Below, one piece after another: positions 2,544 to 15,808 of a stretch of DNA of 64,000 nucleotides. The stretch lies in NCBI RefSeq assembly GCF_023091245.1, contig NZ_JAHWXN010000001.1:1302001-1366000 (forward strand), given 5' to 3'. Both the position numbers and the translations under genes were made by a program. The stretch is from Microbacterium croceum. Its GTDB lineage: Bacteria > Actinomycetota > Actinomycetes > Actinomycetales > Microbacteriaceae. The notes below the pieces were generated by a model. It did no database searches. It saw nothing but the letters and a program-made list of their open reading frames with translations, and was not told the DNA's origin. Numbering within the stretch: the stretch's first letter is position 1; every line of letters begins with the position of its first letter.

Positions 2544-2665
2544 GTTCCGGCGCGGCGCCCTGGAGGAGAACTCGTTCTCGGGCGGAGAACCTCACGGGGA
2601 TCATCCGCCCGACGTGGAGAAGTCTTCCCGCAGCGTGGCGGTCGCCGCGCTGCGGCGGCGGGAGG

Positions 2666-3094
2666 TCAGCCCTGGCGGAGCTTCTCGGCGAGGTCGCGCA
2701 GCGTGCGCAGCTCGTCGTCGCCGAGAGCCGACATCCGTTCGGCGATGGAGCGGCCGTGCACGGTGGCGAGCGAGCGGAACGCGCGCGCACCGGCCTCCGT
2801 GGCGCGGATGAGGGAGCCCCGCCCGTCGTCGGGGTCGGCGCACTTCGACACGAGCCCGCGCGTGACCATGCGGTCGACGAGTCGCGAGACGCTGGGCTGG
2901 CTGATCAGCATGTTCGCCGTGACGTCGCGCAGCCGCGCGGTCATGTCGGGGGAGCGGGTGACGGTGAGCAGCACGTCGTACTCGGCCTGCGCGAGCTCGC
3001 CGTGCTCGAAGTCCGCCATCATCTCGGTGAAGAGCTCGTGCTGCGCCCGGAACAGGCTCTCCCAGGCCTCCAGGGCGAGCTTGCGATCGGTCAT
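2666..3094 (-). CDS. MarR-family transcriptional regulator
   Basis: A 142-residue winged-helix protein with the MarR layout: N-terminal dimer helix, helix-turn-helix around residues 50-75 (ISQPSVSRLVDRMVTRGLV), a basic wing containing DPDDGRG (about 83-89), and a C-terminal dimerisation helix ending in LAEKLRQG. MarR proteins usually repress neighbouring genes and release DNA on binding small aromatic or oxidising ligands. The ATG at 3094 is preceded by TGAGGA at a suitable distance; the open frame extends further but into non-MarR sequence. It lies head-to-tail upstream of the flotillin-like gene with a ~215-bp gap holding an inverted repeat. The ligand is unknown. Confidence 0.87.
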   Translation of the reverse strand: MTDRKLALEAWESLFRAQHELFTEMMADFEHGELAQAEYDVLLTVTRSPDMTARLRDVTANMLISQPSVSRLVDRMVTRGLVSKCADPDDGRGSLIRATEAGARAFRSLATVHGRSIAERMSALGDDELRTLRDLAEKLRQG

Positions 3095-3120
3095 CCTCAC
3101 AGGATAGTGCGAACAGTAAA

Positions 3121-3150
3121 GGGCCGGTCGGAGAGGCTCCCGACCGGCCC
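3121..3150. terminator. 11-bp perfect hairpin upstream of the MarR gene
   Basis: GGGCCGGTCGG (3121-3131) pairs perfectly with CCGACCGGCCC (3140-3150) across an 8-nt loop. It has the form of a terminator, but no gene clearly ends here: the MarR gene starts 27 bp to its left on the minus strand. It may insulate the MarR promoter or be a leader hairpin. Confidence 0.5.
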
Positions 3151-3289
3151 TTGTCCCTTGCACCAAGAGTGTCCTGCAATCACATGCGGTGAGTGCCACA
3201 GCAAACATTCACCGTGTGATCACTGTATAACGGCGAGGTAACGAATGCAACGGTTTGGTCACGGCGATTTGAGAACCACGACCATTGGA
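3151..3289. other. Non-coding DNA left of the mobile unit
   Basis: I see no gene here. The sequence is somewhat AT-richer than its surroundings (for example CACTGTATAACGG near 3222) and could hold the MarR promoter. The last five bases (3285-3289, TTGGA) are the left copy of the target-site duplication of the 11-kb element. Confidence 0.5.
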
Positions 3290-3378
3290 TGTGTCCGATC
3301 TCACGAGAGTTGTCGGAGTCTCACGAAGGCTGTCGGAGCGTCTCACGAAAGTGGCGGAGTCTCAGGAAGCCCGTCGGA
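3290..3378 (+). repeat. Left terminal region: inverted end plus four tandem ~20-bp units
   Basis: The terminal inverted repeat (3290-3316) overlaps the first of four head-to-tail units with consensus TCTCACGAnnnnTGTCGGA: 3299-3317, 3319-3337, 3341-3358 and 3360-3378. Later units are more diverged. Multiple tandem copies at an end are typical of transposase binding sites in IS21-family elements. Confidence 0.8.
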
Positions 3379-3404
3379 TCGCGGTGGCGCCGTCTCCCTG
3401 CCGT

Positions 3405-3422
3405 AAACGATCGTTTCCGGCG
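3405..3422. repeat. 18-bp direct repeat near element end, left copy
   Basis: AAACGATCGTTTCCGGCG occurs here and, in the same orientation, at 14217-14234 near the other end of the element. The first 12 bases are a perfect palindrome. The copies lie 115 and 235 bp inside the two tips. It could be an accessory recombination or regulator site, or the trace of an earlier rearrangement. Confidence 0.6.
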
Positions 3423-3552
3423 CGATCGAAAGTCACTAGCCGAACAGCTGCCGATAAGTCTCCGCGGAACCTGCACCATCGCTGGTGACAACTTGGGCTT
3501 GCCACGCTACAGCTGCCATCTACCAGCGACGAGACACAGATATCCTGTCCGC

Positions 3553-3750
3553 ATGAAGAAGCCGCAGCAGTATCTCGCAGGCGCAGCGTCGCTCTTCGTT
3601 GTTTCGGCGAGCACCCTTCTGATAACAACGCCGAACTGGTGGTCGGGCGCGGGGGCTTTCGGCGCTCTGGTCGCAGGCTGGACGCTGCTCCTCAGAGAAC
3701 TCGCCGAGCGCTCCACCACCAACAGCCAAGTCAGCTCTCCGCCCGAGTAA
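3553..3750 (+). CDS. Small two-helix membrane protein of unknown function
   Basis: A 65-residue protein starting with MKK, with hydrophobic segments at about residues 8-25 (LAGAASLFVVSASTLL) and 31-47 (around GAFGALVAGWTLLL) and a polar Ser/Thr-rich tail. I do not recognise a family. The ATG lies 6 bp after TATCCT (3541-3546), which would make a leaderless transcript, and no ribosome site is visible. It is inside the mobile unit just before the GntR gene and could be cargo or a chance reading frame. Confidence 0.45.
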   Translation: MKKPQQYLAGAASLFVVSASTLLITTPNWWSGAGAFGALVAGWTLLLRELAERSTTNSQVSSPPE

Positions 3751-3902
3751 GGCGCTGCAGCTGCAGATGCCGCCAGCGGGCGCTGGCTCCAGGTACGCGT
3801 CGACGAGCTCGCAGGCTGCTGCCGGTCGACCGTTCAGAGCTTAGTCGATCCAGGCGAGTCCACATCGTTATGAACCCTCGGGTTCGTATCAGCGCATATC
3901 TG

Positions 3903-3922
3903 GTGTATACCTTATGTATGTC
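3903..3922. promoter_or_regulatory. Probable GntR autoregulatory operator overlapping its start codon
   Basis: GTGTATACCTTATGTATGTC (3903-3922) matches the palindrome upstream of the ABC operon (4633-4652) at 14 of 20 positions, keeping the half-site words GTGnATAC and GTnTG. It covers the ATG of the GntR gene (3918), so binding would block its own expression. The shared word is seen; the function is inferred. Confidence 0.6.
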
Positions 3923-4580
3923 AAAGCTGACTGCCCACGAAACTGCGTACCGGTGGCTCACCCACCGCATCCGAGCAGTGCCGCCGAACGAGGGGACATA
4001 TCTCCTCGAGGTTGAGGTGGCCGAGGCGGCAGAGGTCTCTCGCACTCCGGTGCGAGAAGCGATGACGCGCCTCCAGGCGGAGGGGCTTGTTCAGCGCACA
4101 CCGCGTAAGGGTGTCTACGTGCCTCCCATCTCCGATGCCGAGATCGGCTGGCTCACCGAATCGCGCGAGCTCATCGAGCTGCATGCCTTCGCTTCCGTGC
4201 TTGGCGACAAGGGCACCGCAGAGGCGATGGCGGATGCACTTCGACGTCAGGAAGAGGTCACGGACGGGGCGGAGTTCATCGAACTCGACCACGACTTTCA
4301 CAACGCGGCTGTCACAGCAGCCGGCAACTCTTTCCAGATCGCCTCCTACAAGCTTCTGGAGGAGCGCCAGATCCGGCTCGGTCGCGGAGCAGTCGCGGTT
4401 CGTGACGAGCGACGAGATGACGTGCTCCGCGAACACAGGGCGATCCTCAACGCGTTCGTGGCGGAAGATCTCCCCGCCCTGCGCGCTGCGGTAGCGGAGC
4501 ACCTGGATAGAACACAGGAAAGCCTGAACGCCCGGCGCAGCCCGGGTTACCGAGCGAGCCGCGTCACGTCGCAGTCGTAA
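3918..4580 (+). CDS. GntR-family (FadR/FCD-type) transcriptional regulator
   Basis: A 220-residue regulator. The N-terminal winged helix contains VSRTPVREAMTRLQAEGLV followed by PRKGVYVPP, the usual GntR recognition helix and wing. The C-terminal all-helical part has the FCD signature residues (ELDHDFHNAAVTAAGN, then EHRAILNAF...AAVAEHL), where His/Asp normally bind a metal and a carboxylate ligand. Such proteins usually repress operons for uptake and breakdown of organic acids or amides. The ATG at 3918 is chosen because the conserved domain starts within a few residues and because the operator-like site spans it; the open frame runs further upstream as non-conserved Arg-rich sequence. It is the first recognisable gene of the mobile unit and sits 90 bp upstream of the ABC operon. 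Confidence 0.88.
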   Translation: MSKLTAHETAYRWLTHRIRAVPPNEGTYLLEVEVAEAAEVSRTPVREAMTRLQAEGLVQRTPRKGVYVPPISDAEIGWLTESRELIELHAFASVLGDKGTAEAMADALRRQEEVTDGAEFIELDHDFHNAAVTAAGNSFQIASYKLLEERQIRLGRGAVAVRDERRDDVLREHRAILNAFVAEDLPALRAAVAEHLDRTQESLNARRSPGYRASRVTSQS

Positions 4581-4629
4581 CTTCCACGAAACACGGGACA
4601 CATCATGCCGACACGAAGCACGCGCACAC

Positions 4630-4656
4630 TTAGTGCATACATAACGTGTGCACTAA
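4630..4656. promoter_or_regulatory. GntR operator upstream of the ABC/catabolic operon
   Basis: TTAGTGCA (4630-4637) and TGCACTAA (4649-4656) form a perfect 8-bp inverted repeat. The 21-bp core GTGCATACATAACGTGTGCA(C) resembles the site over the GntR start codon. It ends 3 bp before the ribosome site of the first permease gene, so a bound repressor would block initiation of the whole operon. Confidence 0.7.
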
Positions 4657-4669
4657 ATGAGGAGGTGTC

Positions 4670-5647
4670 ATGGCCACGATCGTGACGACGGAGCTGGCAC
4701 CCACCACTGTGCCCACTCGGTACAACCTGGTCAGGTCGGTTCTCCGCAGCCCGACGGCATGTGTGTCTGGGGCGGTGATCCTGCTTGCCGTCCTCATCGG
4801 CGCCTTCGCGCCTCTCATCGAGTCGATCTACGGATACTCACCGACCACGGTCAACTCGCAGCTTCTCGATGCGAACGGAAATCCGCTTGGCTTCTCCGGC
4901 GGGATCACGTTTTCGACTGACAACGCATCGGGCCACATCCACATCATGGGAGTGGAACCGGGGACCGGGCGAGACCTGTTCATGCAGCTCGTCTACGGGA
5001 TCCGAACGTCTCTCGTGATCTCCCTGTCCGGAGCTCTGCTCGCCGCTGTCATCGGTGTCGTGATCGGGCTTGTCGCGGGGTACGCGCCGAAGCGGACGAG
5101 TGCTGCCGTGGACTGGTTCATCGACATCGCCCTCGCTTTCCCGTTCCTCATCTTCTGCCTCGCTCTCATCCCGGTGACCAACACCTACCTGGCCGACGAG
5201 AACGGGCAGGTCAGTCCCTTCGCCCGCGGTCTCACGATCATCATCATCTTCGGCCTGTTCACCTGGATGACTGTCGCCCGCCTTGTGCGTGCGGAGGTGA
5301 AGTCGCTCTCTCAGCGCGAGTTCGTCGATGCGGCCCGTGTGGCTGGAGCGGGACATGGATGGATCCTTTTCCGCGAGCTCCTCCCCAATCTCTGGTCCCC
5401 GATCATCATCCAGACCTCGGCAGCGATCCCCATCCTGATCACCGCCGAAGCAGCGCTCTCATTCCTCGGCATCGGCATGGTCGAACCGACTCCTGACCTC
5501 GGACGCCTGCTGAACAACAGCATCCCGTACGCGCTGAGCAACCCCACCTACATGCTCGTCCCGGGCATCACCCTCGTCTCACTCGTCCTCGCATTCAACG
5601 TCTTCGGCGACGCGCTCCGTGACGCCGTAGATCCCCACACCCGATAG
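4670..5647 (+). CDS. ABC transporter permease, DppC/OppC type
   Basis: A 325-residue inner-membrane permease of the dipeptide/opine/nickel importer class. An N-terminal helix is followed by an extracytoplasmic stretch of about 70 residues and then five membrane segments. The cytoplasmic EAA loop that contacts the ATPase reads EFVDAARVAGAG (about 222-233). GAGGAGG sits just before the ATG at 4670. It is the first gene of a run of nine closely spaced genes reaching 13802. Having the C-type permease precede the binding protein, with the B-type permease third, is a less common order. The substrate is unknown; related systems import peptides, opines, glutathione or similar organic acids and amides. 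Confidence 0.9.
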   Translation: MATIVTTELAPTTVPTRYNLVRSVLRSPTACVSGAVILLAVLIGAFAPLIESIYGYSPTTVNSQLLDANGNPLGFSGGITFSTDNASGHIHIMGVEPGTGRDLFMQLVYGIRTSLVISLSGALLAAVIGVVIGLVAGYAPKRTSAAVDWFIDIALAFPFLIFCLALIPVTNTYLADENGQVSPFARGLTIIIIFGLFTWMTVARLVRAEVKSLSQREFVDAARVAGAGHGWILFRELLPNLWSPIIIQTSAAIPILITAEAALSFLGIGMVEPTPDLGRLLNNSIPYALSNPTYMLVPGITLVSLVLAFNVFGDALRDAVDPHTR

Positions 5648-5676
5648 CACCAAGAACCCTGGAAGGAACGCAGAAG

Positions 5677-7389
5677 ATGCGAAACAAGATTCTCTTGACC
5701 GCCGGCATCGTGGCCGCGGTCAGCATCACGCTCGCTGGCTGCACCTATAACGACGGCGGCTCTAGCGGCAGCACGTCAGGCCCCGCCGAGTCGCAGGTCA
5801 TCACCGTCGACTACGAGGGATCCGCCGAAGCGCCCGCAGCCGAAGTGGTTGATGCGGTGTCCGGCGGGGAGGTCATCATCGCCGACGAAAGCCCGTTCGA
5901 GAGCACGGACCCCGCTGCGCTGAACGTCTCCGCGGCTCGCTCCGTCGGCACCGAACTGCTCTTCCGCACCCTCACCACCTACCTGACTGACGGTGAGTCA
6001 GGCGACACGTCGCTTGTCGGCGATCTCGCCACGAACGCCGGCTCCGCGAACGAGGACGACACCGTCTGGACTTACACGCTCCGCGAGGGCATCACCTTCG
6101 AAGACGGCACCCCCATCACCGCGCAGGACGTCGCCTACGGCATTGCCCGCTCCTTCACCACTCTGGGCGTCGCCGGCGAGCAGAACCTTCAGGACGCCCT
6201 CGACCCCGACCGCGCCTACCAGGGCCCCTACGACGGTGAGCTCCTGCCGCCCGGGGTGACCACCCCTGACGAGCAGACCATCGTGTTCACCCTCGACCAG
6301 CCCACCCCGTTGCTGCCCTACTTCCTCTCGACGGCCAACACCAGCCCGGTCCCGGCCGATGCCGACACGCGCCAGTCCTACGGCTCCGAGTTCGTCTCCA
6401 CCGGCCCGTACCGCCTCGGTGAATACGTTCCCGAGCAGTACATGGTGCTTGTGCGCAACGAGGGCTGGGATCCGGAGACTGACCCGGTGCGCCACCAGTA
6501 CCCGGACTCCTACCGGATCGAGTTCAACGTGTCGGCATCCACCCAGGTGCAGCGGGCACTCGCCAGCCAGGGCGCGGACGGGAACCTCCTCGGCTCGAGC
6601 AATGTCCCGCAACAGGACATGCCCTCCGTGACGGGCGACGACGAAGCGAACATCATCGCCGGTGCGATCCCCGCCACCTACTTCATCACCATCAACACTG
6701 AACGGGTCACGGACCTGGCGGTGCGTCAGGCGCTGAACTATGCGATCGACCGTGACGGGCTGGCAAAGGCGCGCGGCGGCGTCAACGTCGCCACCCCGCT
6801 GAACACCATCCTGCCGTCGGCCCTCGTCGGCTATGTCGAGTCGGACACCTACCCGATGTCGCCGGACGTGGAGGCCGCGGAGAAGGCGCTGGATGGACAG
6901 ACCCCCGAGCTGACCTACTGCTACGCCAACTCCACTCTCGGCAATGGTGACGCCGTGGTCGTGCAGTCCTCTCTGGAGGCCGCCGGCTTTAAGATCAACC
7001 TCAACCCCATCGAGGGCGCCAGCTACGTGAGCACCGTCCGCAATCCGGACAGCGGCTGCGACCTGTTCTTCTTCAGCTGGGCACCGGCCTACCCGGACCC
7101 GTCCGCGGTCATGAACCCGCTCCTCAACGGTGCGTCGGGCATCAACCTGTCGCTGCTGGATGACAAGGCGGTCAACGACGAGCTCGCGACGCTCGCGGGT
7201 GAAAGCGACCGCGCGGTCGCTGCACCCCAGTACGGCGAACTCGATAAGACGGTCATGACGGACCAGGTCCCGATGATCCCCACTGTCAGCGAGAACGTGT
7301 ACCAGCTCGCAGGCAGCAACGTGAAGGGGAGCTTCGTCAACCCGATCCGCTCGTTCCCCAGCCTCGTCAACATCTACCTCGAGCAGTAG
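5677..7389 (+). CDS. ABC transporter substrate-binding lipoprotein (SBP family 5)
   Basis: A 570-residue extracytoplasmic binding protein of the DppA/OppA class. The signal peptide ends in the lipobox LAGC with Cys22 as the predicted lipidated residue, followed by a Ser/Gly-rich linker. The mature part has SBP_bac_5 features such as WTYTLREGITFEDGTPITAQDVAYG and the later block FSWAPAYPDPSAVM. It would capture the substrate outside the membrane and hand it to the two permeases. It starts 29 bp after the upstream permease gene, and a strong hairpin follows it, which commonly lets binding-protein mRNA accumulate above the rest of its operon. The specificity cannot be read from sequence. Confidence 0.92.
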   Translation: MRNKILLTAGIVAAVSITLAGCTYNDGGSSGSTSGPAESQVITVDYEGSAEAPAAEVVDAVSGGEVIIADESPFESTDPAALNVSAARSVGTELLFRTLTTYLTDGESGDTSLVGDLATNAGSANEDDTVWTYTLREGITFEDGTPITAQDVAYGIARSFTTLGVAGEQNLQDALDPDRAYQGPYDGELLPPGVTTPDEQTIVFTLDQPTPLLPYFLSTANTSPVPADADTRQSYGSEFVSTGPYRLGEYVPEQYMVLVRNEGWDPETDPVRHQYPDSYRIEFNVSASTQVQRALASQGADGNLLGSSNVPQQDMPSVTGDDEANIIAGAIPATYFITINTERVTDLAVRQALNYAIDRDGLAKARGGVNVATPLNTILPSALVGYVESDTYPMSPDVEAAEKALDGQTPELTYCYANSTLGNGDAVVVQSSLEAAGFKINLNPIEGASYVSTVRNPDSGCDLFFFSWAPAYPDPSAVMNPLLNGASGINLSLLDDKAVNDELATLAGESDRAVAAPQYGELDKTVMTDQVPMIPTVSENVYQLAGSNVKGSFVNPIRSFPSLVNIYLEQ

Positions 7390-7396
7390 AAACCAC

Positions 7397-7431
7397 GGGC
7401 CGAGAGCGATCCCCTCGCTCGCTCTCGGCCC
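7397..7431 (+). terminator. Intra-operon hairpin after the binding-protein gene
   Basis: GGGCCGAGAGCGA (7397-7409) and TCGCTCTCGGCCC (7419-7431) make a perfect 13-bp stem with a 9-nt loop, between the binding-protein and second permease genes. It probably acts as a partial terminator or mRNA 3'-end stabiliser that raises binding-protein yield. Confidence 0.65.
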
Positions 7432-7456
7432 ATCGCCCCTACACGAATGACATGCC

Positions 7457-8446
7457 GTGAACTTTCTGATCCGAAGAATCCTTCTGGCAGTAGCGACGCT
7501 GCTGGTCGTATCGATCGTGACCTTTCTGCTGTTCTTTGCGGCGCCCTCAGACCCTGCTGAAGCCCTCTGCGGAGTGAGAGGGTGCGGTGAAGAACAACTC
7601 GCACAGATCCGGGCCACCTACGGCCTCGACCTCCCTCTCTACGTGCAGTACTTCACCTTCCTGGGCGGCATCTTCTTCGGTCGCCAGATCGGAGTCGGAG
7701 GCGCGGCGATCGACTGCGTCGCCCCCTGCTTCGGTGTGTCCATGCGCACGGGCGAGGCCGTCACCGACATCATCGCCCGGGGTATCCCCGTCACGCTGAG
7801 CATCGTCATCGGCGGCTTCGTCCTCTACATGATCATCGGCGTCGGCCTCGGAGTCCTCGCAGCCACTCGCCACCGCACCATCATCGACCGGATCGCCGTC
7901 GGCGGATCCATCGCCGGAGCCTCACTGCCGATCTTCTTCGTTGGCCTCATCCTCACCACCGTGCTGGTGTACGGCCTCGAAGTCCTTCCTCGCCCCGGAT
8001 ACGTCGACCCCACGAAAGACCTTGCGGGTTGGGCCGGCGGGATGCTGCTGCCGTGGATCACCCTGGCGATCGTGAACTCCGCGATCTACGCACGGTTGTC
8101 GCGGTCCGCGATGCTCGACGCTCTGTCACAGGACTTCATCCGCACGGCGCGGGCGAAGGGACTGAGCACAGGCACCGTCAACCTCAAGCACGCCCTCCGC
8201 GCAGCGATCACCCCTATCGTCACGATCGCCGGCCTGGACCTCGGAGCACAGCTGGGCGGAATCGCCATCCTCGAGAACGTCTTCGGCCTCAACGGCGTCG
8301 GACAGATCGCGGTCACCGCAGTCGCCGCTGTGAACTTCCCCGTCGTCATGGGAGTCGTCCTGCTCGCGGCGTTCTTCGTCGTCGTGATGAACCTGGTCAC
8401 AGACTCCATGCAACTAGTGCTCGACCCCCGGATCGAGAGGCGCTGA
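7457..8446 (+). CDS. ABC transporter permease, DppB/OppB type
   Basis: A 329-residue permease with the DppB N-terminus (LIRRILLAVATLLVVSIVTF), an extracytoplasmic region carrying several Cys residues, and five further membrane segments. The EAA-like loop is at about DFIRTARAKGLS. It pairs with the DppC-type permease encoded upstream to form the membrane channel. The GTG at 7457 gives the canonical first helix; no strong ribosome site is visible, so translation may be weak or coupled. The ATPase gene follows after one base. The insertion of about 20 residues with paired Cys near residues 77-90 is unusual for DppB and may be specific to this subfamily. Confidence 0.9.
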   Translation: MNFLIRRILLAVATLLVVSIVTFLLFFAAPSDPAEALCGVRGCGEEQLAQIRATYGLDLPLYVQYFTFLGGIFFGRQIGVGGAAIDCVAPCFGVSMRTGEAVTDIIARGIPVTLSIVIGGFVLYMIIGVGLGVLAATRHRTIIDRIAVGGSIAGASLPIFFVGLILTTVLVYGLEVLPRPGYVDPTKDLAGWAGGMLLPWITLAIVNSAIYARLSRSAMLDALSQDFIRTARAKGLSTGTVNLKHALRAAITPIVTIAGLDLGAQLGGIAILENVFGLNGVGQIAVTAVAAVNFPVVMGVVLLAAFFVVVMNLVTDSMQLVLDPRIERR

Positions 8447-8447
8447 C

Positions 8448-9320
8448 ATGTCCCAGCCATTCCTCGAGGTGACGAACCTCACCATCAAGACCCAGGCCGG
8501 CAAAGTCCTCGTCGACGATCTGTCCTTCGGTGTCGAGAAGGGGGAGACCCTCGCGATCATCGGTGAATCAGGATCCGGGAAGAGCCTCACCTGCCTCGCG
8601 ATCATGGGGCTGCTTGACCCCTTCATCATGAAGGTGAGCGGATCCATCCGCGTCGACGGCACCGAGCTGGTCGGCCTCCGGGAAGCGGGTTATCGGCGGC
8701 ACCGAGGATCGTCGATTGGCATGGTCTTTCAAGATCCGCTGACCGCACTCCATCCGTTCTTCACGGTCGGCGCTCAACTCGTCGAAGGGCTGCGAGTGCA
8801 CCGCCGCATCTCCAAGACGGAAGCACGAGACCTGTCCGTGGAGCTCCTCGAACGGGTGGGAATCGAGAACCCCGCCCAGCGGATGAAGCAGTACCCGCAT
8901 CAGTTCTCCGGCGGCATGAGGCAGCGAGTCGTCATCGCCATGGCCGTGGCCAACCGCCCGGGACTACTCCTGGCCGATGAGCCGACCACCGCTCTTGACG
9001 TCTCCGTACAAGCGCAGGTTCTCACGCTGCTCCGCTCCCTCACCGACGAGCTCGGCTCCGCTGTGCTGCACGTAACCCACGACCTCGGCGTCACCCGAGA
9101 ATCGGCGGACACCGTCCTCGTCATGCACAGCGGCCGCGTGCTCGAGCGCGGCCGCGTCTCCAAAGTGCTGCACACCCCCCGACATCCCTACACGCAGGCC
9201 CTGCTCGACAGCTACCCGACGCTCACCACGCCGCCCGAATCGACGCTGAAGCCCGCTGATGCCGCGCTCGCAGACCTGCCGCCCGTTGACTGGCGCGACC
9301 CGAAAGAAGAATCGGCATGA
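8448..9320 (+). CDS. ABC transporter ATPase, DppD/OppD type
   Basis: A 290-residue nucleotide-binding subunit. Walker A is GESGSGKS (about residues 42-49), the ABC signature is SGGMRQR, Walker B is LLLADEPT, and the H-loop is in VTHDLG. The C-terminal part keeps the HTPRHPYTQALL motif typical of oligopeptide-type ATPases, but the protein is about 30-40 residues shorter than most DppD and lacks the Cys-rich iron-sulfur tail seen in some. It overlaps the next ATPase gene by 4 bp (ATGA), so the two are probably translationally coupled and form a heterodimer. Confidence 0.92.
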   Translation: MSQPFLEVTNLTIKTQAGKVLVDDLSFGVEKGETLAIIGESGSGKSLTCLAIMGLLDPFIMKVSGSIRVDGTELVGLREAGYRRHRGSSIGMVFQDPLTALHPFFTVGAQLVEGLRVHRRISKTEARDLSVELLERVGIENPAQRMKQYPHQFSGGMRQRVVIAMAVANRPGLLLADEPTTALDVSVQAQVLTLLRSLTDELGSAVLHVTHDLGVTRESADTVLVMHSGRVLERGRVSKVLHTPRHPYTQALLDSYPTLTTPPESTLKPADAALADLPPVDWRDPKEESA

Positions 9321-10105
9321 CCACCGCCGCGGACTACCTGAAAGTCAACGACCTCGTCGTCGACTTCCGCACCAAGCGCCAACGAGCCGACCCGCGCACC
9401 AGACCCGCCGTCGGCGGAGTCGATTTCACCATCCCTCGCGGGTCCATCACAGGCCTGGTCGGAGAATCCGGATCCGGCAAGTCCACGTTCGGTCGTGTCC
9501 TCGTGGGGCTGCAACGCCCCACGTCCGGAGAGGTGGAGTTCGTTGACAAGGAACATGCCTCGCGCGCTCAAATGGTGTTCCAGGACCCGTACTCCTCGCT
9601 CAACCCACGACAGACCGTCCTCGAGCTGATCGGCATGCCGCTGCGCGTCGTCGGAATGAAATCCGCCAAGCAGCGCCGCGACCGTGTCCTCGAGATGCTC
9701 GGTTTCGTGGGGCTCACCGAAGAGCACCTCGATCGCTACCCGCACGAGTTCTCCGGGGGGCAACGCCAACGAATCGGCATTGCCCGTGCACTCGTCACGT
9801 CCCCAGATTTCATCGTCGCCGACGAACCGGTCTCTGGACTGGATGCCTCCGTGCAGGCGCAGGTGCTCGGGCTTCTGCGACGCTCCCGCGACGAGTTCGG
9901 TCTGACCATGCTGTTCATCAGCCACGATCTCGCCGTCACCCGTTACCTGTGTGAGCACATCGCGGTGATGCAGCACGGTCACATCGTCGAGGTCGGCACC
10001 CGCGACGAGGTCTTCAACAACCCGCAGCACCCCTATACGCGCGCGTTGCTCGCCGCGGTCCCGGGGGAGGGCCCGGCGCCCGCAGATCGAGAGGAAGCAC
10101 CGTGA
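9317..10105 (+). CDS. ABC transporter ATPase, DppF/OppF type
   Basis: A 262-residue second nucleotide-binding subunit. Walker A is GESGSGKS, the Q-loop region reads QMVFQDPYSSLNPR, the signature is SGGQRQR, and Walker B is FIVADEPVSGLD. The QDPYSSLNPR block is characteristic of OppF/DppF rather than OppD. It starts inside the stop region of the preceding ATPase (ATGA) and its own stop overlaps the GTG start of the serine hydrolase gene (GTGA), tying transport and enzyme genes into one translational unit. Confidence 0.92.
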   Translation: MTTAADYLKVNDLVVDFRTKRQRADPRTRPAVGGVDFTIPRGSITGLVGESGSGKSTFGRVLVGLQRPTSGEVEFVDKEHASRAQMVFQDPYSSLNPRQTVLELIGMPLRVVGMKSAKQRRDRVLEMLGFVGLTEEHLDRYPHEFSGGQRQRIGIARALVTSPDFIVADEPVSGLDASVQAQVLGLLRRSRDEFGLTMLFISHDLAVTRYLCEHIAVMQHGHIVEVGTRDEVFNNPQHPYTRALLAAVPGEGPAPADREEAP

Positions 10106-11235
10106 GGTACACCGAACCGGTTGTGAGCTCATCGTTCGTCGCTCCGGGGCTCGAGGGTGTTCGCTCCGCGTTCTTGGCCAACTTCGAGCAGGGGCTGGAG
10201 GTGGGAAGCAGTTTCGCCGCATTCAAAGACGGGAAGAGGATCGTGGATCTCGCCGCGGGAGTGGCACACCCCATGACCCTGGAGCCCTACACCCGGGACA
10301 CCATCACGCTCTCATTCTCGGGAACCAAAGGGTTCGTCGCCATGTGCCTGGCAATCCTGCTGGATCGCGGTGAGATTGACCTCAACGAACCCGTCGTCCG
10401 ATACTGGCCAGAGTTTGGGCAGCACGGGAAACACACCATCACCGTTCGTGATGTCGTCACGCATCGGTCCCGGCTTCCCGGGATCGATGTCCCCGTGGAC
10501 TTCGACGACATCACGCACCCGCAACACATCGCCGCGATCCTCGCCGCTCAAGCACCCAGCACTGATCCGCGGGCGGGATTCTGCTACCACGCGCTCACCT
10601 ACGGGTGGCTGTGCGCGGAGCTCGTGCGCCGCGTAGACGGGCGCAGCATCGGCACCTTTTTCCGCGAAGAAGTGGCTGCACCCCTCGATGCGGAGGTTTG
10701 GATCGGTCTGCCCGACGATGTTCTGCCGCGCGTATCCCACCTCATCCCGGACCCCGACTGGATCACGAATCCCGCCCTCAACGGCGAACGGTTCTCGGTG
10801 GACCCGCTGTTCCGCTCGATCATCGGAAACCCGCCGATTCTCGACCCCGGCGACTACCGCTGGAACACGCGCGCACTCCGCCAAGCGGAGATGCCGGCCT
10901 CCAACGGTGCCGGCACAGCAGTCGGAATCGCGAGCCTCTATGCGGGATTCCCTCACCTCATCAGCCTTCCCACACTTAACCTCGTGACCTCGCCCCTGGA
11001 GTCCGGGTTCGATGAGACCTACAACTCGCACAGCACCTACGGTGTGGGGTTCTCCCTCAAAGACGATGAACCGGGCCGACCCGCCGCTGTCGGCGGCTAC
11101 GGGCATGCCGGCAATGGCGGCTCCGTGCATGGCTACTGGCCGGCGTCCGGAATCGCATACTCCTACCTCCCCAACCTGGCCCGTAAGACCGAGAGGGCCG
11201 CGCCGATCCTCGACGCGCTCTCCGCTGCGCTCTGA
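10102..11235 (+). CDS. Serine hydrolase of the beta-lactamase / EstB-like family
   Basis: A 377-residue enzyme with the serine beta-lactamase fold. The SxxK motif is S73-G-T-K76, the second catalytic segment is around YHALTYGW, and the third motif reads YGHAGNGG in place of KTG/HGG. No signal peptide is visible, so it acts in the cytoplasm. Relatives include esterases, amide hydrolases and D-aminopeptidases rather than true beta-lactamases. It is tied to the importer genes by GTGA overlap, so it probably hydrolyses the imported compound (ester, lactone, lactam or amide). The substrate is unknown. Confidence 0.85.
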   Translation: MRYTEPVVSSSFVAPGLEGVRSAFLANFEQGLEVGSSFAAFKDGKRIVDLAAGVAHPMTLEPYTRDTITLSFSGTKGFVAMCLAILLDRGEIDLNEPVVRYWPEFGQHGKHTITVRDVVTHRSRLPGIDVPVDFDDITHPQHIAAILAAQAPSTDPRAGFCYHALTYGWLCAELVRRVDGRSIGTFFREEVAAPLDAEVWIGLPDDVLPRVSHLIPDPDWITNPALNGERFSVDPLFRSIIGNPPILDPGDYRWNTRALRQAEMPASNGAGTAVGIASLYAGFPHLISLPTLNLVTSPLESGFDETYNSHSTYGVGFSLKDDEPGRPAAVGGYGHAGNGGSVHGYWPASGIAYSYLPNLARKTERAAPILDALSAAL

Positions 11236-11245
11236 AAGGACTTCC

Positions 11246-11968
11246 ATGTACGCCAAGAAAGCACGCATCGGATTGCTCATCCCTTCCCTCAACGTCGTCG
11301 CCGAGCAAGACTTCTTCCGTCTTCTCCCCGACGGATACCAGGCGATCTCCACCCGCATTCGGTTCGAGGGCGGAGGAAAAGCAGGTCTCGCCCGGATGAA
11401 TGAGGAAGTGAGCAGCGGAACCTCCCTCCTCGTCACTGCCGGTGTCGACGCCGTGGGTTTCATCTGCACCTCCGGGAGCTTCATCGACGGCCCCGAGGGA
11501 GAACAGAAGCTCATCGAGAGCATCCGGTCAGAACTTCCCGAAACCACCCCGGTGATTACCACCTCCTATGCGATCGTCGACGCACTAAAGCACATGGACA
11601 TCTCACGCATTGCGCTCGTCACCCCGTACGGGGATGATCTCAACGCGCTCGAAGTGGACTACTTCCAGTCCGCGGGCCTGGACGTGAAGCGATTCGCGTC
11701 GTTGTACGTCGGCGCTGCTGTCGAGGCCGGACGCCAGGATGATGACGCCGCCTACAACCTCGCCCGACAGTTCGACCGGGACGACCTGGACGCGATCGTG
11801 ATCAGCTGCACCAACCTCCCCGCAATAGACGCAATCGATCGGCTCGAGAAGGAAACCGGGCTTCCCGTGATCACCAGCAACCAGGCCACCCTGTGGCAGC
11901 TGCTGCGCGCGCTGGGATGGTCGGGCTCACTCCCCGGATACGGGGCACTGCTACGAGACAACCTCTAA
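11246..11968 (+). CDS. Asp/Glu racemase-superfamily enzyme (maleate isomerase / arylmalonate decarboxylase type)
   Basis: A 240-residue protein starting MYAKKARIGLLIPSLN, as in maleate cis-trans isomerases and arylmalonate decarboxylases. Both potential catalytic cysteines are present: C74 in GFICTSGS and C188 in VISCTN. Arylmalonate decarboxylases keep only the second Cys, so the two-Cys pattern favours an isomerase or racemase. The ATG at 11246 follows AAAGGA. Together with a nitrilase-fold amidohydrolase next door it suggests conversion of an amide to a small dicarboxylate followed by isomerisation, as in N-heterocycle pathways (nicotinate breakdown yields maleamate then maleate). That pathway link is inference. 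Confidence 0.85.
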   Translation: MYAKKARIGLLIPSLNVVAEQDFFRLLPDGYQAISTRIRFEGGGKAGLARMNEEVSSGTSLLVTAGVDAVGFICTSGSFIDGPEGEQKLIESIRSELPETTPVITTSYAIVDALKHMDISRIALVTPYGDDLNALEVDYFQSAGLDVKRFASLYVGAAVEAGRQDDDAAYNLARQFDRDDLDAIVISCTNLPAIDAIDRLEKETGLPVITSNQATLWQLLRALGWSGSLPGYGALLRDNL

Positions 11969-11978
11969 GGAGCCGAAC

Positions 11979-12782
11979 ATGCGCATCAACCTCATTCAGG
12001 CCTCCAGCCCCGACAACGAAGACATCACCACTCGCCGCGCACGCATCGCCGACATGGTGCTCAGCACGCGCGGTGACCTCGTCGTCCTCCCCGAGCTGTG
12101 GCCCGTCGGCTACAACAACTTCGACCAGTACGCCGAAACCGCCGAGCCAATGAACGGCGCAACCATCACCGATGCCTCGGTGTGGGCGCGCACCCTCGGC
12201 TCCTACGTGCACGTGGGGAGCTTTGTCGAAGATGCCGGCGACGGAAAGTTCCACAACACGACTGCGCTCATCAACCCCGACGGCGAACTCATCCACTCCT
12301 ACCGGAAAATGCATGTCTTCGGCTACAAATCTCTCGAAGCAGAGCTGCTCGCCCCCGGAGAATCGATCACCGCAACCACCTGGCCGTTCGGCGAGGTCGG
12401 GTCAACCACCTGCTACGACCTTCGGTTCCCCGAACTCTGGCGCGGACTCGTAGATGAAGGTGCCGAGACCGTCATCACCCCCGCAGCCTGGCCACAGGCG
12501 CGTCTCGCACACTGGCGCCTCTTCACCTCCGCCCGAGCAGTCGAGAACCAGATGCTCATCATCGCCTGCAACGCTGCCGGGGAACAGCGCGGAGTCACCC
12601 TCGCGGGCCACTCCCGCGTCATCGATCCCTGGGGAAACGTCCTGCTCGAAGCCGATGACGCAGAAGGCATCTTCAGCATCGACGTCGACCCAGACATCGT
12701 CCGCCAAGTGCGAGCGGAATTCCCCGTACTCGGCGACAGAAAACTCACGTTCGGCCCCCGACCCACTGAAAGGCCGGCATGA
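11979..12782 (+). CDS. Carbon-nitrogen hydrolase (nitrilase superfamily amidohydrolase)
   Basis: A 267-residue enzyme with the nitrilase catalytic triad in order: Glu39 in LVVLPELWP, Lys110 in YRKMHVFG and Cys145 in TTCYDLRFPELWR. The CYDLRFPEL context is typical of amidases and omega-amidases of this superfamily rather than true nitrilases. It hydrolyses a C-N bond, most likely releasing ammonia from an amide, in the cytoplasm. The gene starts 10 bp after the racemase-like gene and overlaps the next gene by 4 bp (ATGA), so it belongs to the same operon. The substrate is not identified. Confidence 0.88.
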   Translation: MRINLIQASSPDNEDITTRRARIADMVLSTRGDLVVLPELWPVGYNNFDQYAETAEPMNGATITDASVWARTLGSYVHVGSFVEDAGDGKFHNTTALINPDGELIHSYRKMHVFGYKSLEAELLAPGESITATTWPFGEVGSTTCYDLRFPELWRGLVDEGAETVITPAAWPQARLAHWRLFTSARAVENQMLIIACNAAGEQRGVTLAGHSRVIDPWGNVLLEADDAEGIFSIDVDPDIVRQVRAEFPVLGDRKLTFGPRPTERPA

Positions 12783-13468
12783 CCCCGCCCCGTGAAGCTC
12801 TCATCGATCTTCCCGAACTCCACAACCCAAAAGTAGTCGTCGTCGGATATGCAGGACGGGATCTTGCCTCAGTCCAGCACCACATCGACGAGCTCGCCGC
12901 CATCGGCGTGGCCCCGCCCCCCGAGGTTCCCATGCTGTACCCCATGCCCCAGGAGACTCTGGAACGCTCCGCCGCGATCGAGGTGCAGGGCCGCGGGACG
13001 TCCGGAGAGGTAGAGCCCGTTCTCGTGCGGGCAGGATCCCGCTGGTACCTCACCATCGGCTCCGATCACACAGACCGAGATCTCGAAGTCCAAGACATCC
13101 TTCTCTCCAAGCAGGTATGCGGGAAGCCCATCGCGTCGCAAGCGATCGCCCTCGATGGCGACCCGACTGACGGGGCTGCCGATGCCCTATGGGACTCCGC
13201 GCACATGGACAGCTGGGTGGATGGTGTGCCCTATCAGAGCGGACCACTCTCCACCCTTCGTCACCCCAGCGACCTCATCGAGCGCGTTACCGCAGCCAAC
13301 GACACCACCGGCGATCTCGTGATCTTCGGCGGAACCGTACCCCTGATTGACGGCACGTTCCGACCCGGCCAGGTGTTCACCGCGACCCTGGCAGTGCCAG
13401 GCGTTGACTCACTCCACCTCGCATACACAACCACCGTCTCGAAAGAAGAAACCGATGAACAAGCCTGA
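12779..13468 (+). CDS. DUF2848-family protein
   Basis: A 229-residue protein that I place in DUF2848 from conserved blocks: an N-terminal VVVVGYAGRDLASVQHHIDEL, then EVPMLYPMP, TSGEVEPVLV and a central GSDHTDRDLE. The acidic/His cluster SDHTDRD suggests a metal or substrate site. No function is established that I know of. It is encoded between the amidohydrolase and the cupin, with 4-bp and 14-bp overlaps, so it is likely needed for the same catabolic step, for example as a hydrolase or isomerase of the ring-opened product. Confidence 0.75.
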   Translation: MTPPREALIDLPELHNPKVVVVGYAGRDLASVQHHIDELAAIGVAPPPEVPMLYPMPQETLERSAAIEVQGRGTSGEVEPVLVRAGSRWYLTIGSDHTDRDLEVQDILLSKQVCGKPIASQAIALDGDPTDGAADALWDSAHMDSWVDGVPYQSGPLSTLRHPSDLIERVTAANDTTGDLVIFGGTVPLIDGTFRPGQVFTATLAVPGVDSLHLAYTTTVSKEETDEQA

Positions 13469-13802
13469 AGTCGAATTCACTGACATCGAGACCGTGCCAG
13501 TCACCCCGTGTGCCGGCACCGTCGCAGAGCTAACCGAACGCATCCTCGCAGCGGACCCTGACAGCGGCACCGCCACCCGCATCCTGTACTTCGCCCCAGG
13601 ATGCGACACCACCCCCAACGGCGTCCAGATCCACGACTTCTGGGAAGAGGTCTACATCCTCAACGGCTCCATCACGGACACCCGCCTCGGACAGACCTTC
13701 ACAGCCGGAATGTACGCCGTCCGGCCCCCCGGAATGCCCCACGGCCCCTGGACCTCCACCGAAGGCGCCCAAACCTACGAAGTGCGATACCCGGCGTCCT
13801 AA
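13455..13802 (+). CDS. Small cupin-domain protein
   Basis: A 115-residue single-domain cupin. The first metal-binding segment reads IHDFWEEVYILNGSI and the second is RPPGMPHGPW, giving His, Glu and a second-motif His as in ChrR-like or dioxygenase-like cupins. It is the last gene of the operon; its ATG at 13455 lies inside the end of the DUF2848 gene. Possible roles are metal-dependent isomerase, dioxygenase or sensor of the pathway product. A hairpin terminator follows 50 bp downstream. Confidence 0.8.
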   Translation: MNKPEVEFTDIETVPVTPCAGTVAELTERILAADPDSGTATRILYFAPGCDTTPNGVQIHDFWEEVYILNGSITDTRLGQTFTAGMYAVRPPGMPHGPWTSTEGAQTYEVRYPAS

Positions 13803-13852
13803 CACCAAGCGCCCCGACCGAGCTCAAACTAGCTGCTCCTGTCGATACAGTC

Positions 13853-13888
13853 GCGGCCACCGCTGAACGTCGATCCAGTGGTGGCCGC
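13853..13888 (+). terminator. Terminator hairpin of the catabolic operon
   Basis: GCGGCCACCGCTG (13853-13865) pairs with CAGTGGTGGCCGC (13876-13888), a 13-bp stem with one G-U pair and a 10-nt loop, 50 bp after the cupin stop codon. No U-tract. Confidence 0.7.
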
Positions 13889-13969
13889 GTCCGCGTCTAT
13901 GACGATCGCGCGGTCAACGTTTAAAGACTGCCGTGCCGGGTCGTCACCCCTGACTAACCGCAGACGGGG

Positions 13970-13998
13970 AAGGGTCGAGTCCCCAGTATTCGACCCTT
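13970..13998. terminator. Second hairpin after the catabolic operon
   Basis: AAGGGTCGA (13970-13978) and TCGACCCTT (13990-13998) form a perfect 9-bp stem with an 11-nt loop. It may be a backup terminator for either strand. Confidence 0.5.
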
Positions 13999-14216
13999 CA
14001 CTGACGTCCGCCTGGCGGAGTCCCGCGAGACGCTGCAGCCGCGGGGCACGATGCAGCGTACAAAAGGAGTAACCCTCGCAGTGACCACCGGCTAGGGTGC
14101 CCGCTCTCGTCACGGGTGAGGATCCAGCTGCGGGTCGAAGGCTCCCGCACGAACGTTCGGCCAGACTCGCTTACGGTGTAAGTCCTTGCGATCGGCTGAC
14201 CACCACCGCCCACCGA

Positions 14217-14234
14217 AAACGATCGTTTCCGGCG
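14217..14234. repeat. 18-bp direct repeat near element end, right copy
   Basis: This is the same AAACGATCGTTTCCGGCG as at 3405-3422, in the same orientation. The 12-bp palindrome at its start makes either orientation equivalent for a dimeric protein. Confidence 0.6.
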
Positions 14235-14360
14235 GGCGCACCGAGGTCGCCGGCCGACTGCACGACACGCCGGTCCCTCAGCTGCCGAAACATCATGCCG
14301 GAACATGTTGCGCCGAAACGGTCCGCCCGACTTTTAGGCAGGGTGAGAGCGAAACGCGAT

Positions 14361-14469
14361 TACCGACAAGTTTCGTGAGACAACCGGCAGTTTGTGCGGC
14401 GCACCACTTACCCGTCTTTCCGGGGATGCCCTGTCTCACCAACCGACAGCTCTCGCGAGATCGGACACA
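14361..14469 (-). repeat. Right terminal region of the 11-kb element
   Basis: The outer 27 bp (14443-14469) are the inverted partner of the left tip. A second copy of the unit, read on the minus strand as TCTCACGAAACTTGTCGGTA, lies at 14361-14380. The two copies are about 80 bp apart, unlike the four tandem copies at the left end, so the ends are asymmetric as in IS21-type elements. Confidence 0.75.
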
Positions 14470-14540
14470 TTGGATGCGCGTGATCGGGGCGGAGCACGTC
14501 GACCAGGACGGGCCACGCGCCCCTGACCGGCATCCGCGAC

Positions 14541-15437
14541 TCACCGCCCCTGCGGCGAGATCACCAACCGCGTGCCCCACGGGTCGGCGAGATGCAGGCT
14601 GCGACCGTCGTCGGCGCCGTGGATCCCGTGACCGAGCACCCGTTCCGCCATCGCCTCGACGTCGTCGCGGGTCGGCACCTGGATGCGCACATCGCCGAGC
14701 CCGAGGGAGGCGGCACGGGGTCCGGCCCCGGCGCTCTGCCAGGTGTTCATGCCGATGTGATGGTGGTAGCCGCCGGCAGAGACGAACAGGGCCGATCCCA
14801 GATCGGCGGTGACGTCGAGGCCGAGCACGTCGACGTAGAACCGCTTCGCCGTGGGGATGTCGCCCACCTGCAGGTGCACGTGACCGATCGCCGCGGTGTC
14901 TCCGGCGGTGGCCGCATCCTCGTCGAGCCACTGCCGCAGGAACGCATTCGGGTCGAGCGGGAGGGAGTCCATCACCACACCGCCGCCCGGTGTCCGCTGC
15001 CACTCGCCGCGAGGGCGGTCATGGTAGAGCTCGAGGCCGTTGCCCTCGGGATCGGTGAAGTAGAACGCCTCGCTGACGAGGTGGTCCGCTGAGCCCGTGA
15101 AGGTCTGGGGCACCCGCTGGGCCATCTGGAAGAGCGAGGATGCGAGCTGCTGCGGATCCTGGAACAGGATGGCCGTGTGATAGAGCCCGGCGCCGCGGGG
15201 GTTCGCCGCGGGGAGGTCCCTTTCCTGCCGCAGCGTCATGATCTTCTGCGCGCCGCGTCCGAGCACGGCAGAGGCGCCGGAGTGCTCGAGCACATCGAGC
15301 GTGACGGCATCGCGGTAGTAAGCGGTCATGGCGTCGAGGTCGCGGACGAGCAGCTCGACGGTGTCCATCTGCGTGCCGTCGGGCGCGGCTCCTGTCGTCG
15401 CCGTCGGAGTCGAGCGCCAGTCCCCGGGCGAAGACAT
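14541..15437 (-). CDS. VOC-family ring-cleavage dioxygenase-like protein (CatE type)
   Basis: A 298-residue protein made of two vicinal-oxygen-chelate modules. Metal-ligand candidates are His in GLYHTAILF, Glu in GNGLELYHD, His in IGHVHLQV and the later YHHHIGMNTW block. The arrangement matches the catechol-2,3-dioxygenase-like CatE proteins of firmicutes and actinobacteria. Its start codon shares one base with the stop of the DoxX-like gene (TGATG), so the two are coupled. A longer start at 15446 is possible. In Bacillus the equivalent catDE pair protects against quinones and catechols; the same role is inferred here from the order DoxX-CatE plus divergent MarR. Confidence 0.85.
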   Translation of the reverse strand: MSSPGDWRSTPTATTGAAPDGTQMDTVELLVRDLDAMTAYYRDAVTLDVLEHSGASAVLGRGAQKIMTLRQERDLPAANPRGAGLYHTAILFQDPQQLASSLFQMAQRVPQTFTGSADHLVSEAFYFTDPEGNGLELYHDRPRGEWQRTPGGGVVMDSLPLDPNAFLRQWLDEDAATAGDTAAIGHVHLQVGDIPTAKRFYVDVLGLDVTADLGSALFVSAGGYHHHIGMNTWQSAGAGPRAASLGLGDVRIQVPTRDDVEAMAERVLGHGIHGADDGRSLHLADPWGTRLVISPQGR

Positions 15438-15808
15438 CACGCCCATGATGCGAATCCGAGCCAGGCGGCGGCGATGGCGAGCACCAGCAGCACGATGTTC
15501 ACCACGAGCGTCTTGACCTCGCCGCGCACGACGTGGGTGACGATCGCGCCGAGCTGCACCAGCACCAGACCGACGGCGGCGAGCGGGGCCAGGATCGTGG
15601 CGATGCCGGTGAGCGGGGGAAGGATCAGGCCGAGGGCGCCGAGCACCTCGACGACTCCGATCGCCTTGACCGTCCACAGCGGGAAGTCGGGAGCCCAGGT
15701 CAGGCCGGACTCGGCCAGCGTGGCCGGTGGGCGAACGACCTTCATCGCACCAGCGCCGAGATAGGCGAGTGCGAGCAGCCCCGCGACGATCCAATATGCG
15801 ATCAACAT
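15437..15808 (-). CDS. DoxX-family membrane protein (CatD type)
   Basis: A 123-residue protein with four membrane segments. It contains the DoxX N-terminal block ALAYLGAGAMKV and the central VVEVLGALGLILPP. DoxX-like proteins accompany oxidoreductases or dioxygenases and are linked to thiol or quinone stress. The ATG at 15808 has AGGAGA just upstream. It is the first gene of a two-gene operon with the CatE-like gene, divergent from a MarR regulator across a 71-bp spacer. Confidence 0.87.
   Translation of the reverse strand: MLIAYWIVAGLLALAYLGAGAMKVVRPPATLAESGLTWAPDFPLWTVKAIGVVEVLGALGLILPPLTGIATILAPLAAVGLVLVQLGAIVTHVVRGEVKTLVVNIVLLVLAIAAAWLGFASWA

Follow-up and report, generated by a model that had tools for sequence, protein, structure and literature searches.

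Tn7-like ends without tns genes around a palindrome-framed catabolic cassette in Microbacterium croceum

Tn7-like transposons encoding TnsA, TnsB, TnsC and two TniQ proteins are the closest described relatives of the DNA considered here. A survey of Tn7-like cargo mentions metabolic cargo and takes core Tn7 protein profiles as its starting point, so that elements without tns genes would presumably have been missed (PMC8649781); target selectors of Tn7-like elements are treated in a second article (PMC10293859) and Shewanella elements in a third (PMC12452197). This study concerns an 11.2-kb catabolic unit (positions 3290 to 14469) within a stretch of 64,000 nucleotides from Microbacterium croceum (assembly GCF_023091245.1, contig NZ_JAHWXN010000001.1, positions 1,302,001 to 1,366,000), the whole of which is referred to as the window. 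With the transposons described in PMC8649781 and PMC10293859, the unit shares repeated TnsB-like sites, tips of the type TGT...ACA, a fixed site and orientation, and cargo between the ends, but it differs from them in that no tns or tniQ genes were found, in a flush direct repeat of 9 bp, and in the framing of its cargo by a palindrome. A search of the open-access literature gave no evident reports of naturally non-autonomous Tn7-like elements, of Tn7-like elements in Microbacterium or of the palindrome.

Mobile insertion cassettes consist of insertion-sequence ends around passenger genes, encode no transposase and are moved in trans. Defined in this way, they resemble the window unit in their transposase-free passenger genes, whereas the latter features Tn7-like ends, a dedicated site and an 11-gene operon. 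In integron cassettes and in the p-dif modules of Acinetobacter, genes framed by short recombination sites are arrayed and reassorted. Compared to these, the palindrome described below is a fully symmetric site of 20–28 bp with a central AT, for which no link to an integrase or Xer protein was shown; no recombinase was seen in the cargo, and one tyrosine recombinase was located near one palindrome array.

With considerable confidence, the unit is regarded as a non-autonomous element with Tn7-like ends that is moved in trans and holds a palindrome-framed catabolic cassette. This is based on the type of the ends, the position at an attachment site, the direct repeat, the lack of a detectable TnsB, the occurrence of sibling units without tns genes, and a palindrome bounding shared blocks in relatives. 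In the proposed mechanism, a shell of approximately 110 bp on the left and 235 bp on the right would be bound and moved by the TnsABC-TniQ proteins of another element and delivered to an attachment site that is found throughout the genus, upstream of a MarR gene, with the left end facing the site. The shell would carry one 10.8-kb cassette between two palindromes, comprising a GntR-controlled importer of the oligopeptide/dipeptide type together with ester-, amide- and isomerase-type enzymes, and this cassette may have entered by recombination at the palindromes. An earlier note on this DNA had proposed a non-autonomous catabolic unit mobilised in trans; the non-autonomous nature and the metabolic cargo were supported, and mobilisation in trans would be the most likely mode of movement. 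Neither the attachment site nor the palindromes around the cargo had been noted there.

Ends and attachment site of the unit

The 27-bp inverted tips (3290–3316 and 14443–14469) differ at two positions and possess TG and CA as outer bases, exactly as the earlier note had described them. A 25-bp tip pattern (up to three mismatches) matched twice in the window, compared to a mean of 0.00 in 100 shuffles, and the only tip copies in the whole genome are the two bounding the unit; for the 18-bp tip core, the next-best genomic sites were two with two mismatches each. Further tip-like repeats, which the note had likewise pointed out, follow 3' of the left tip at approximately 3311, 3331, 3352 and 3372 and represent putative TnsB-binding sites. 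In relatives, the tip reads TGTCCG. Since the tip is fixed by these relatives, the flush direct repeat abutting both ends is read as 9 bp (CATTGGATG) and not as 5 bp: TTGGA represents the middle of this repeat, the additional TG and CA are its last and first bases, and a 5-bp duplication is obtained only when the tip is set 2 bp longer. The TTGGA duplication proposed previously is thus present outside both tips, but as part of a longer flush repeat, and the view that a single unit was inserted with intact ends and a target duplication is supported.

Across 366 genomes of the genus, the tip pattern (up to three mismatches) was found in 29, the reversed control giving zero in the rows, and in eight genomes besides that of the window the outermost matches converge at distances of 18–64 kb. 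The left end of the unit shares 93% identity across 73 bp with the left ends of several tns-bearing elements and 87% across 75 bp with that of the element in genome G020; the corresponding nhmmer match reached 1e-33 with a model that includes the window's own left end. The right end is 79–90% identical over 215–267 bp to its counterparts in 11 other genomes and 70% identical over 216 bp to the G020 right end, with weaker or shorter matches elsewhere. The ends of this group are asymmetric: tip-like repeats follow each other in tandem several times in the left one, the inner sequence of the right one is different, and the window unit has one end of each type.

In G020, an 18-kb pair of such ends encloses genes for a TnsA-like protein (PF08722), a TnsB-like DDE transposase (rve and Mu C-terminal domains) and TnsC (TniB/AAA), followed by two further genes at the TniQ position and genes reading as type I restriction-modification. 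Among solved structures, the G020 TnsB matches that of Tn6677 (E 1.9e-17) and the TnsC matches ShTnsC, and no molecule named as an IS21 transposase was among the matches of either protein. All TnsB relatives listed with an organism name originate from Microbacterium, except one from Cryobacterium. On sequence grounds, the window ends are Tn7-like and homologous to the ends of TnsABC-TniQ elements, since homologous ends elsewhere enclose tnsA-tnsB-tnsC and two TniQ-position genes; the repeated tip-like sites would be predicted to bind TnsB. As a separate observation, the TniQ-position genes of G020 are followed by one for a protein without a Pfam match (L053, 6945–7445), and an open reading frame (ORF) of similar appearance by eye adjoins a unit in G204 (L103, 5976–6950).

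The DNA left of the element, up to position 3264, resembles that adjoining the left ends in relatives. A query covering the MarR gene and the intergenic region (2660–3288) found matches in 365 of the 366 genomes, the weak rows of which may represent other MarR genes, and more distant attachment-site matches stop short of the core end at 3264. Between core and tip, the window shows a gap of 27 bp with the left end facing the core. Gaps of 20–27 bp in the same orientation were determined for 11 of 12 tns-bearing elements (that in G127 was not alignable without gaps) and a gap of 24 bp for the tns-less unit in G082, the core in G058 being too divergent for measurement; the window unit is thus inserted at a fixed distance and orientation from the attachment site. 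The position of TnsB was checked for 44 of the 46 strongest TnsB rows, 25 of which lie in genomes with an attachment row. In 22 of these 25, the gene starts 961–1027 bp past the core (exceptions: G111, G132 and G226), and the 22 proteins are 40 to 100% identical to the G020 TnsB. Moreover, G101, in which no such end was found at the site, and G100, which carries an element, diverge precisely at the element tip. Insertion of the unit into an empty site would imply the pre-insertion sequence ...CACGACCATTGGATGCGCGTG....

Stacked elements were also encountered at the attachment site, with approximately 1–21 bp from one right end to the next left end (L048–L050, L051–L052, L054–L058, L061–L063 and L111–L114, in G016, G017, G042, G099, G122 and G246). 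A 5-bp repeat encloses the entire stack, in which the tns-bearing element stands first and the tns-less ones after it, as if stacks moved jointly. The attachment core was also considered as a known RNA and rejected, as two Rfam matches scored far below threshold (23.7 versus 58.8 bits and 23.5 versus 47).

Lack of tns genes and sibling units

Neither a transposase nor a recombinase was seen among the annotated cargo genes, and no tns or tniQ genes, as expected for an autonomous Tn7-like element, were found between the ends. A protein search scoring at most three candidates per genome detected no TnsB in the window's genome at 1e-20 and a TnsB match in 97 of the 366 genus genomes; likewise, searches with the tip core and TnsB found no autonomous partner in the own genome. 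The earlier statement that the unit contains no transposase was supported.

In total, 11 genomes yielded 12 delimited units that have such ends but no tns genes (two in G340); the eleven besides that of the window originate from 10 other genomes and feature varied cargo, as read for 11 of the 12. Their size spans 0.79 kb to 20 kb, and the 787-bp unit in G082 is close to a minimal mini-element. Five of the 12 have flush direct repeats with a length of 4 bp or more (window, 9 bp; G058, 8 bp; G204 and G132, 5 bp each; G302, 4 bp), as do all nine tns-bearing or composite elements; the other seven tns-less units have none, with a near match only in G082. The two longer repeats, in the window and in G058 (L129), both belong to tns-less units adjoining the MarR locus. 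No TnsB match was obtained in the genomes of the window, G204, G308, G263, G253, G302, G058 and G082, and divergent TnsB matches were found in G132, G266 and G340. The simplest reading is that the tns-less units form a non-autonomous group moved in trans, which arrived horizontally in cells now lacking the enzyme, with local deletion being possible for any single unit. An element in G106 (L059–L060) possesses intact ends and a 5-bp repeat and has kept tnsA with only a short TnsB match; it may represent a step towards tns-less units and indicates that loss of tns genes does occur. If transposase-free carriers are common, Tn7-like attachment sites would be shared docking places for adaptive cassettes moved by other elements, among them importers, cytochrome P450, alkylsulfatase, metal resistance and reverse transcriptases.

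An alternative origin of the window unit would be an autonomous Tn7-like element that was inserted with the catabolic genes and then lost tnsABC-tniQ by internal deletion at this locus. Its ends do belong to the same family as those of autonomous elements, the genome now contains no TnsB, and the G106 element retains only tnsA and a TnsB fragment, all of which would suit such a remnant. However, the palindrome is located 109 bp into the left end, as in 17 of 26 tns-less and none of 12 tns-bearing left ends (up to three mismatches, a level that no shuffle reached; both groups include near-copies, and some tns-less ends, in G194 and G039, were followed for a few kilobases only). Furthermore, the closest left-end relatives are those of G235 (92%), G204 (88%) and G308 (87%), of which the latter two are tns-less with other cargo, G204 having its own 5-bp repeat at another site, and a local remnant is thus considered improbable. 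Far less credit still is given to an IS21-family derivative that has lost istA/istB, although the earlier note had described the ends as IS21-type and TG...CA termini, multiple internal repeats and a repeat of 4–8 bp also fit IS21. Five IstB-family matches were obtained in the own genome, all partial (24–100 of 238 positions) and in open frames of 435–905 residues; the one exceeding the cut-off covers 100 of 238 positions in the 905-residue frame, and homologous ends enclose tnsABC elsewhere. Membership in IS21 was rejected on the grounds that the element contains no istA/istB and the examined partners with such ends carry tns genes, the test having covered istB in the own genome only, with no separate search for istA.

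Several points weigh against the interpretation as a Tn7-like element moved in trans. Pfam searches of the own genome for the Mu C-terminal domain and TniQ were negative, but their controls were silent as well, so that the absence of machinery rests on the TnsB protein search, and TnsC was not searched. The G106 element was counted as tns-bearing on tnsA and the short TnsB match and lies outside the 97 TnsB genomes. For the two TniQ-position proteins of G020, no family match was found at 1e-3 (the first against Pfam and NCBIfam, the second against Pfam only), and their identity is deduced from position, length and 30–35% mutual similarity. The flush repeat of the window measures 9 bp, versus 5 bp in eight and 4 bp in one of the nine tns-bearing or composite elements, which poses the question of how such ends are joined. 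Flush repeats are missing from seven of the 12 tns-less units, so that remnants in decay, and not movers, may be among them. The empty site predicted in the earlier note had no exact match: G147, the nearest relative with both neighbours, matches the window DNA from 14530 onward at 89% beside an equivalent attachment site, shows no such end there, and holds 2.3 kb of other DNA between the core and the right neighbour. Finally, no second copy of this cargo was found in the genus genomes or the contig collection searched.

The palindrome as a boundary of cassettes

The whole genome contains exactly two copies of a 20-bp palindrome (CCGNAAACGATCGTTTNCGG), which frame the cargo (mean in window shuffles, 0.05). 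Its extended consensus of approximately 28 bp is symmetric with a central AT, as would suit a dimeric site-specific recombinase. With up to one mismatch, the palindrome was detected in 40 of 79 genomes tested, the control pattern giving zero in all; these comprise 26 of 36 genomes chosen by a tip or left-end match and 14 of 43 others. The copies are clustered with spacings of about 0.15 to 17 kb and are also present outside Tn7-like ends. In the window unit, the shell is arranged as left end–palindrome ... palindrome–right end. Among right ends of both kinds pooled, 13 of 21 carry the palindrome, and those of the stand-alone tns-bearing elements in G020, G106 and G136 do not. The palindrome as a hallmark of all tns-less left ends was rejected, given its presence in only 17 of 26. 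No exact match to the palindrome was found in viral contigs and no match at all to the right end in plasmids, where two palindrome-framed cassettes gave partial matches only.

Among 1396 ends of blocks shared between genomes, 35 have a palindrome no more than 40 bp away in both genomes, compared to about 1% of bases that near; the rows are not independent of one another, and the presence of palindromes was the reason for including many of the loci. An 11,189-bp block common to G051 and G002 is 99.8% identical and bounded by palindromes, a 5.6-kb block is common to G042, G051, G210 and G002 (98%; left palindrome degenerate with three mismatches in three of the four), and a 1.5-kb block is common to G051 and G016 (99%). 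Within 300 bp outside the blocks on each side, four of five pairs show no similarity and the fifth one 32-bp match on one side. The 107 palindrome copies of 29 genomes form 100 junction types, and 25 flank families have at least two different partners. Among these multi-partner families is that of the right-end flank at the window's right palindrome, represented in G017, G340, G204, G235, G246 and G253. The inner variable base (N) was kept in 54 of 65 one-sided junction pairs and the outer one in 37, which would fit exchange inside the 12-bp core, a signal that is not overwhelming because several pairs share a family. Taken from these comparisons, the palindrome in relatives appears to mark where interchangeable gene cassettes start and stop.

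Based on a motif scan, which may have missed others, no recombinase recurs in all palindrome array regions. Small serine resolvases were detected in G016 (two), G098 and G122 (one each), and one tyrosine recombinase by the G098 array; candidate palindrome recombinases, one tyrosine and two families of small serine resolvases, are located at L156 (15923–17140), L150 (4928–5509), L172 (8395–8961), L182 (5515–6096) and L061 (4066–4632).

A wider two-layer mobility in Microbacterium may be envisaged, for and against which we see the chances evenly divided: palindromic sites of about 28 bp with a central AT would frame cassettes reassorted by a putative site-specific recombinase, and transposase-free Tn7-like shells would pick up such cassettes and be delivered by the TnsABC-TniQ of other elements to a genus-wide safe site, the window being a complete example with a single cassette. 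Conceivably, the palindrome could instead be only a transcription insulator of each gene cluster, and the cassettes would then owe their movement to homologous recombination or to other transposons. This is in keeping with CCGNAAAC-GATC-GTTTNCGG, which by reading could form a short hairpin, with the lack of a recombinase gene common to all arrays, and with 1361 of 1396 block ends having no palindrome on both sides. We nevertheless find an insulator doubtful, as there are only two copies in this genome, several pairs of genomes lose their homology at the palindrome on either side, and flank families change partners while the inner base is kept more often than the outer. The palindromic frame is the most novel part of the finding and may represent an integron-like system of cassettes in Actinobacteria.

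Cargo genes and further features

The cargo corresponds to that described in the earlier note, namely a GntR regulator, a full ABC importer and five enzyme or accessory genes (Table 1). Judged by gene families, it would take up and hydrolyse a small amide-, ester- or peptide-like nitrogen compound, and a maleamate-to-maleate-to-fumarate route is weakly suggested.

Table 1. Features of the window and tns-less units in other genomes
Feature	Position or size	Strand	Remarks
MarR-like gene beside attachment site	2666..3208	-	ORF; start likelier near 3094; family read from sequence, no profile search
Conserved core of Tn7-like attachment site	3220..3264	.	most top-scoring matches stop at or just past last base
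Left copy of direct repeat	3283..3291		CATTGGATG; contains TTGGA 3285-3289
Left end, Tn7-like	3292..3400	+	tip TGTCCGATCTCACGAGAG, then tandem tip-like repeats
Palindrome 1	3401..3420	.	CCGTAAACGATCGTTTCCGG; putative cassette boundary just inside left end
GntR/FCD regulator	3918..4580	+	
ABC importer permease (BPD_transp_1)	4670..5647	+	
Solute-binding protein family 5	5677..7389	+	
ABC importer permease	7457..8446	+	
ABC ATPase	8448..9320	+	oligopeptide/dipeptide-type C-terminal region
ABC ATPase	9317..10105	+	oligopeptide/dipeptide-type C-terminal region
Beta-lactamase-fold esterase	10102..11235	+	closest solved chains: fenoxaprop-P-ethyl hydrolase, carboxylesterases
Maleate isomerase / arylmalonate decarboxylase-like enzyme	11243..11968	+	
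Carbon-nitrogen hydrolase (Nit2 / amidase type)	11979..12782	+	
DUF2848 protein	12779..13468	+	no solved relative at 0.001
Cupin protein	13455..13802	+	
Palindrome 2	14213..14232	.	CCGAAAACGATCGTTTCCGG; putative cassette boundary just inside right end
Right end, Tn7-like type	14233..14467	-	similarity to right ends in other genomes
Right copy of direct repeat	14468..14476		CATTGGATG; contains TTGGA 14470-14474
Native right neighbour, glyoxalase/VOC-like ORF	14541..15794	-	named by reading
G204 unit (L103)	9.1 kb		repeat CCAAG; cytochrome P450/amidohydrolase/permease cassette
G132 unit	3.3 kb		repeat CTTTT; small heat-shock protein, by reading only
G058 unit (L129)	2.3 kb		repeat ACTCCCAG; beside MarR locus like window
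G302 unit	2.1 kb		repeat CTGA
G263 unit (L130)			alkylsulfatase cassette
G266 unit (L125)	5.4 kb		two reverse-transcriptase proteins, possibly defence
G253 unit and one G340 unit			cadmium-resistance type genes, by reading only
G308 unit			metallophosphoesterase, by reading only
G082 unit (L133)	952179-952965, 787 bp		single small frame (NTF2-like by eye) between both ends; located at attachment site

Relatives of the cargo are distant in the collections searched: a scan of the contig collection with exact 8-residue words gave one match of 28%, and a plasmid tblastn search returned 10 records at 30–32%. For the binding protein, the best relative among those listed in the 366 genomes is 36% identical, and the best relatives anywhere reach 80% and 75% (source 'lgn'), followed by others at approximately 42%, Longispora included.

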